From positions 1 through 55,137 of the forward strand of contig CALWVN010000011.1 in assembly GCA_944384995.1 (NCBI GenBank): a DNA stretch of 55,137 bases, in the 5' to 3' direction. The stretch is from an uncultured Clostridia bacterium. GTDB lineage: Bacteria > Bacillota > Clostridia > Oscillospirales > Acutalibacteraceae. Under the pieces are notes generated by a model. It saw only the letters and a list, made by a program, of their open reading frames with translations, made no database searches and was not told the DNA's origin. Position numbers and translations under genes: made by a program. This document shows, piece after piece, positions 52,540 through 53,373 of the stretch. Every line of letters starts with the position of its first letter. Position 1 is the stretch's first letter.

Positions 52540-53373
52540 TTATGTGAGGTCTGAAACGGACAACGGCACCGCATTCGGCGATGAAAACACAACGCTTTGA
52601 TTGGTATAAGAAATACCGTTTTCCAAGCAATATATAATTTGTATCACACCGCCGTGCGTGACCAAAAGCGTGTCGCCCGCGGCGTTTTCGTAATTTGCTT
52701 AAGCTGCCGGGAATCGAACACAATATGGTTTTCAGCGGATGCTTCCCGCGCGGGCAGCGTTAAAAAGCTTGAAATACGTCAAGATCCTTACGCTTTTGTG
52801 CCTTGCCCGCACAAAAATCCTCTCGCTGAAAACTGCTGCGCACCGAAAAACGATGGCGGCAGGGATGGGATTTTCGTTTTGAGCACGCAGGCGGGCTGGC
52901 GCCTGCCAAGGGTGAAAAAGGGAAAGGCCGCCGTGCCGGCGCGTTTTCGGCATATTGGGTTCGACTCTCGGCAGCTTAAAGGCTTTCCACGCAGATGCGA
53001 TCCTGTCAAAAAATGCATGCGGGCTTTCGCCGTTTGGATAATACTCGTCCCATGCAAGTGCTCGATAAAACATGCCCGGGAATTGCCGTTCGGCCTGCAC
53101 ATGCTCCATATCGGCAAGAAGACCGTTATTGATTTCCCGAATTTGCGGGGCGGCAGTTACAGGCAAAGACAGCGCCTGCGCAAGACGTTCGGCAGTCTGC
53201 ACAGCCCGCGGCAAATCACTTGAAAAGATGCGGTGTACATGCATTGCCGTATTCATCAGAATGGACTCTGCCAAACGCTCCGCCTGCAACACGCCTGTAT
53301 CCGTCAAGCCTGAGTGGCTCCACCCGCCGCGAACGGTTTGATCCTCTTCCCCGTGCCGAATCAAGTACAGCAT
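52540..53373 (-). pseudogene. Histidine phosphatase (phosphoglycerate mutase-like), split by an insertion
   Basis: The gene starts at ATG 53373 (AGAGG upstream) with MLYLIRHGEED, whose RHG motif carries the phospho-accepting His7, and reads normally to AWKAFK at 52980. The expected second half, ENAAGDTLLVTHGGVIQII with the second catalytic His, is found at 52540-52697. The 273-bp element 52703-52975 separates them. Translation runs into the element and stops at 52732, giving a 214-residue product that lacks the second His. Joining the halves at a single TTAA still leaves the downstream part out of frame by one base, so further decay has occurred or the boundary differs slightly. The intact protein would have had about 185 residues. 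It follows a NUDIX gene by 28 bases. Confidence 0.88.
52703..52975. mobile_element. 273-bp MITE-like element with inverted ends and TTAA target duplication
   Basis: Both ends carry the same 25-base inverted repeat (52703-52727 and 52951-52975; 22 of 25 identical), consensus beginning GCTGCCGRGARTCGAAC. The element is flanked by TTAA on each side (52699-52702 and 52976-52979). Read outward, each end looks like a tRNA T-arm (GTTCGAYTCYCGGCAGC). The interior has no convincing ORF, so it is non-autonomous. It interrupts a histidine phosphatase gene, which defines its boundaries independently. Confidence 0.82.

Follow-up and report, generated by a model that had tools for sequence, protein, structure and literature searches.

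The segment that splits a histidine phosphatase gene in the window, by which we mean the whole 55,137-nt stretch of DNA that was analysed, is best read as one copy of an orphan, order-wide MITE family of unusually conserved length and fold, of which no prior description was found in open-licence PMC texts. Multiple copies, inverted ends, a TA duplication at one empty site, the lack of a common reading frame, a length of about 278 bp and a covarying fold were observed. The family is probably non-autonomous and TA-targeting, spread across the order in the Clostridia, moved in trans and under selection for its full fold.

The window copy and its target site

The features of the window copy and of the interrupted gene, in window coordinates, are as follows.

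52540..52699, minus strand: C-terminal piece of a branch-1 histidine phosphatase (weak match to His_Phos_1 below the cut-off, E 0.015, collinear with the other piece)
52700..52978, plus strand (arbitrary; plus has the left end with GGTTTT): mobile element of 279 bp, from left TA to right TA (inverted ends, recurrence, alignment)
52700..52701, no strand: left copy of the TA target duplication (flanks of 50 copies; empty site of another copy)
52700..52727, plus strand: terminal inverted repeat at the left, forming the 5' strand of stem P1, with GAATCGAACAC, which complements the T-loop-like motif
52728..52833, plus strand: arm P2 of the predicted four-way junction, with an inner hairpin at 52773-52786 whose loop is GNNA in 21/24 representatives
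52834..52842, plus strand: arm P3, a 3-bp mini-hairpin
52843..52950, plus strand: arm P4, with a tip hairpin at 52890-52907 (GGCGGGCTGGCGCCTGCC) whose loop is TNNC in 24/24 representatives and whose stem has compensatory changes
52951..52978, plus strand: terminal inverted repeat at the right, forming the 3' strand of stem P1, with GGGTTCGACTCTC
52977..52978, no strand: right copy of the TA target duplication (flanks of 50 copies; empty site of another copy)
52979..53373, minus strand: N-terminal piece of the same phosphatase (His_Phos_1, E 4.6e-28)

The initial annotation had described two halves of one phosphatase separated by an insert, and the profile matches agree: the piece at 52981-53373 (minus strand) matched positions 1-131 of His_Phos_1 and the piece at 52540-52698 (minus strand) matched positions 137-163, collinearly and weakly (15.4 bits, the cut-off being 21.7). 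The inverted-repeat ends were likewise found, extending over 29 nt (52699-52727 against 52951-52979) with agreement at 26/29 positions (90% complementary), and TTAA is indeed read on each flank, with 273 bp between the two TTAA. As a short (279 bp), noncoding segment bounded by terminal inverted repeats of 29 nt, the insert has the form of a MITE, and its description as a mobile, non-autonomous inverted-repeat element that breaks a gene is upheld by more copies, one of which has an empty counterpart. Both phosphatase halves are still open frames, which suggests a fairly recent, undated insertion. No empty counterpart was obtained for the window copy's own site, the locus in the relative G038 holding another gene; inspection by eye showed an unrelated small lipoprotein-like gene (L199:1797-2498) where the window has the phosphatase.

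The flanks were compared among 50 copies, these being distinct sequences preselected at 255-300 bp in which both ends could be recognised (copies that were decayed, cut or short are excluded), three of which were reversed in orientation for alignment. TA is intact on both sides in 40 of them and TTAA stands on both sides in 14; T precedes TA in 29/50 and A follows it in 28/50. The TTAA of the window copy is in part due to chance, and a mild preference among these copies for TTAA around TA accounts for the impression it gives. Comparison of filled and empty sites, which the initial annotation had called for, showed a TA duplication of the IS630/Tc1-mariner kind at one locus, where a 192-bp copy in G002 (CGTCT-TA...TA-ACGC) is absent from three relatives with a single TA each: CGTCT-TA-ACGC in G037, CGTCT-TA-ACGC in G038 and CGTCT-TA-GCGC in G025. 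The clean empty site is therefore that of one locus, one short copy and three relatives; at a second orthologous site, that of a 126-bp copy, divergence was too great for a reading. The proposed piggyBac-like duplication of TTAA was not sustained: the flanks of the window copy would suit such an element, but TTAA on both sides in just 14/50 copies and an empty site reading CTTAG in G025, from which it follows that TTAA is not the duplicated unit, leave this explanation a nearly negligible likelihood. The TA duplication at the empty site instead places the family with the TA-targeting MITEs of the ERIC, Correia and RUP kind.

Copy number, length and host distribution

When further copies were sought, as had been advised, 11 more places were found in the window's own genome (1.89 Mb, 86% complete), giving 12 distinct places with the window copy included, and element matches were obtained in 22/39 genomes of the genus (own genome included). 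Five of the copies in the own genome are full-length, the window's among them, and the other four of these are 90-94% identical to it; at the remaining places there are one copy shortened to 209 bp by deletion, some partial copies, and diverged ones that are older. Beyond the genus, the end pattern was matched with up to three mismatches in 15/398 genomes of the family (10/135 genera) and in 12/394 genomes of the order (10/168 genera), with zero matches for the control columns in both sets and the own genome counted in each. The pattern was absent from 383/398 and 382/394 genomes, respectively, and misses diverged copies: G034 holds a full copy by whole-element comparison, yet has zero end-pattern matches. 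Conversely, solo end matches at three mismatches include chance matches, the reversed control also scoring. Copies in three other families of the same order (f10, f25 and f26) were confirmed by whole-element profile matches, and no element match was found in the viral contigs (exact pattern), plasmids and phages searched.

The length of the element is nearly constant. The 50 distinct copies measure 267-280 bp and 48 of them fall within 274-280 bp, a count that is not one of independent events, some copies being orthologous insertions in sister species. For alignment, 24 representatives with less than 88% identity to each other were taken, whose identity to the window copy goes down to 46%; any given frame is open from end to end in at most 2/24 of them. 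Six extra copies from other groups, used in alignment A2 and the tree only, measure 279, 280, 299, 279, 258 and 245 bp, so that length outliers do exist (245, 258 and 299 bp), and copies of 279-280 bp are present in families f25 and f26. Besides the full length, shorter forms of 43 to 209 bp occur. Deletion in place is indicated by G000:C1 (278 bp) and G038:C4 (130 bp), which have the same flanks, some insertions being common to different species. Two 160-bp deletion forms at different loci and in different species (L107:1042-1201 in G025 and L114:1030-1189 in G002) have nearly the same join points, which by eye coincide with the tips of arms P2 and P4, while each form resembles the full copies of its own species; this is perhaps a recurrent deletion between hairpin tips. 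Minimal copies of 48 bp (L171:5050-5097, G276) and 43 bp (L128:4584, G037) contain little beyond the two ends. Copies lying head to tail with one common TA were also seen (L249 and L218 in G580:C61; L251 at G267:C1:71155), and look as if they had inserted in the TA at another copy's end.

The tree of the elements is discordant with that of the hosts: copies from f26 group with those of the window's genus (support 0.996), copies from f25 with genera of the window's family (1.000) and copies from f10 with g22 and g91 (0.993), and the window's genus is spread over several separate clades. Such a tree suits old subfamilies, horizontal transfer or both. It also bears on whether the element could be a non-mobile host-function RNA gene or intergenic regulatory element, a proposal that would fit the covarying fold described below and the position of the copies relative to genes, no ORF of at least 70 aa reaching the element in 33/50 copies (such an ORF, in some cases perhaps a chance one, runs into it in 17/50). 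Against this, an empty site with TA was found, one copy lies within a gene (the phosphatase), the tree does not follow the hosts, and there is no clear orientation bias to neighbouring genes, the 46 classifiable copies comprising 17 in the same and 10 in the opposite orientation, 11 divergent and 8 convergent. A non-mobile host function is accordingly judged very improbable indeed. Terminator-like hairpins directly adjoin several insertions, as noted by eye in the flanks of L004, L002, L102 and L114, and a TPP riboswitch (L054:2551-2662) lies near one copy.

Predicted fold and the tRNA-like letters of the ends

The predicted layout consists of stem P1, formed by both ends, and arms P2, P3 and P4, joined in a linker-free four-way junction, which also appears when the window copy by itself is folded to minimum energy. 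On both strands that copy has a folding energy far below those of its dinucleotide shuffles (z -6.95 and -8.03). RNAalifold applied to the 24 representatives gave 56 pairs, 46 of them with compensatory double changes, and with RIBOSUM scoring yielded -154 kcal/mol, whereas 30 column shuffles averaged -22 (sd 3); the corresponding values for the other strand were -147 and -20. A denser structure of 102 pairs had 86.5% of its cells paired (72.1% when shuffled, 36-45% when slid), a covariation score of 0.402 (0.161 shuffled, 0.10-0.13 slid) and 338 double-change cells against 114 in shuffles, none of the 500 shuffles reaching as high; this structure was tested on the same alignment that predicted it, a dependence that works in its favour in the slid control. 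Searches of Rfam with the window copy returned two chance-level matches only (E 1.5 and 4.3, under the gathering score), and at the gathering score no match was obtained for seven loci and one, a TPP riboswitch outside the element, for ten loci.

Mismatches within the pairs were GT in 57 and AC in 55 cases overall (internal helices, GT 32 and AC 18; P1, GT 25 and AC 37), wobble and mirror types being about equally frequent overall and giving no clear strand preference. As the minus strand also folds nearly as well, the data demonstrate no requirement at the RNA level and none for a single strand. Many copies align over their whole length to their own reverse complement, that is, the element is a quasi-palindrome, and template-switch repair is for this reason the main rival to selection as the source of the paired arms.

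Read outward, the ends of the window copy do carry the letters GTTCGATTCCCGGCAGC and GTTCGACTCTCGGCAGC that had been likened to a tRNA T-arm, but the tRNA-like structure suggested along with them was not confirmed. Among 48 ends, the canonical GTTCRANNC occurs in 26 and the letters GTTC hardly vary at either end (G in 42, T in 45, T in 48 and C in 47), but all five T-stem pairs are present in only 7 (1/24 left and 6/24 right ends); in this count the left ends of L061 and L147 are shifted out of register past a one-base gap. At the position which we take, in T-loop numbering, to be 58, A is found in 39/48 ends and another base in 9/48, and at the one likewise taken to be 60, T is found in 45/48. 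Position 60 is variable in tRNAs. In the outer bases (columns 5-12) the two ends of one element are 91.5% identical, against 68.2% for the ends of different elements, and in lineage L045 the motif has changed at both ends together with the end-to-end pairing kept.

If the element were derived from a tRNA or exploited tRNA-like structure, its ends serving as T-arms, the near-invariant GTTC and the recurrence of GGGAGTCGAACCC in other families of the order would be accounted for. This reading is nevertheless quite improbable in view of the rarity of a complete T-stem, the incomplete conservation of A58, the near-fixity of a position that varies in tRNAs, the joint alteration of both ends in L045, and the failure of either Rfam or ARAGORN to find a tRNA in the window copy. 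The likeness is one of letters. By our own arithmetic a T-arm match of such looseness is expected in about 0.5% of random 28-mers, counting two strands, which makes a coincidence spotted after the fact plausible. Under the preferred reading, a TA-specific transposase supplied in trans would recognise both ends as matching inverted repeats and move the element, and this recognition would be the reason that the ends change together.

Search for a mobiliser and related elements

The DDE_3 domain of IS630 was found in 0/39 genomes of the genus and in 0/13 carriers in other genera, some of these genomes being incomplete and some carriers 97-99% complete; as a control, the same search detected it in 3/14 control genomes. 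An IS630 parent recognisable by DDE_3 was rejected on these grounds. DDE_Tnp_1 was present in 2/24 genomes (G041 and G580) and in 9/14 control genomes, and was rejected as the parent: neither gene lies between two element ends, and near the one in G580 the site most like an end has 4 mismatches, a level reached by shuffles too. The close inverted end pairs inspected were of element size or less, nested or tandem elements (299-391 bp; L207, L247 and L248) or a 1383-bp pile of decayed copies (G580:C44), and wider pairs lay between two complete copies or used one poorly matching end. In two of these wider pairs, the enclosed DNA has a PGA_cap gene as its main ORF (L116) or is collinear host DNA in relatives (L115). 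No transposase enclosed by element ends, that is, no autonomous copy, was found among the end pairs inspected, and fifteen solo ends had no common interior beyond the element sequence, save for a stretch in L134 and L135 far from the ends. Eight recurrent neighbour clusters of at least three members, with one member of each scanned, contained no transposase: six are ordinary (ABC transporter, DUF1846, MnmE, Spo0A, UxuA and DUF4417) and two had no Pfam match. The initial annotation had looked to a full-length transposase with the same ends, which did not appear in the pairs inspected, and had raised the idea of a new class of element, which stands in altered form, as a near-constant length and a covarying fold that extend over several families, no mobiliser having been found.

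An ordinary MITE descended from an old Tc1/mariner-IS630 or IS5-type element since lost or missed, its arms kept by template-switch mutation and not by selection, would explain the quasi-palindrome and the lack of strand preference among mismatches, and a TA duplication is typical of IS630 relatives, with a precedent in RUP and IS630-Spn1 (PMC2229807). We nevertheless consider this rather unlikely, in that DDE_3 is absent from all 52 genomes, nearly complete carriers included, arm repair leaves the near-constant length across families unexplained, and the full form has not been replaced by the 43-209 bp deletion forms that exist. In the preferred account, the full-length fold would be selected for helping movement or tolerance, the folded agent being a folded single strand, a cruciform or a transcript, and such selection may be why the form of about 278 bp predominates while deletion products recur. 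It is conceivable, and here offered tentatively, that the whole 278-nt four-way junction is recognised by an unlinked TA-specific enzyme or tolerated by the cell, so that structure and not sequence is inherited.

Among the closest known systems is ERIC/IRU, which has TA termini with a duplication and an end-to-end paired fold, for which a 2007 review names no matching insertion sequence (PMC2229807), and which is present in more than one bacterial family (PMC10969869). ERIC differs in its length of 127 bp (PMC2759123) against 278 bp, the two being set apart by description and not by sequence, and in having ends of 7 contiguous pairs, whereas the element has 28-nt ends. Correia/NEMIS and RUP are also TA-ended MITEs with inverted repeats, and for RUP a candidate IS630 mobiliser with similar ends is described (PMC2229807), whereas for the present element DDE_3 was found in none of the 52 genomes searched. 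CIR of Caulobacter has a phylogenetically conserved armed fold (PMC2229807), but its two arms and linker lack the stem made by the two ends, whereas the element has an end-formed stem and three arms. The element is moreover a four-way junction found in Clostridia, whereas ERIC is enterobacterial. To our knowledge, REPINs do not combine a TA duplication with long inverted ends. They resemble the element in being non-autonomous, in keeping hairpin-forming capacity and length, and in showing common compensatory changes (PMC3116915), but cluster near RAYT genes, whereas no transposase was found among the recurrent neighbours examined here.

Bacterial MITEs are usually viewed as decaying leftovers of an insertion sequence. 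Here a non-autonomous form has mostly kept its length and fold over several families at sequence identities below 50%, while the two transposase families searched, DDE_3 and DDE_Tnp_1, are missing from almost all carriers tested. The family thereby opens two questions to testing: how orphan MITEs of the ERIC sort are mobilised, and whether selection acts on the body of a MITE as well as on its ends.
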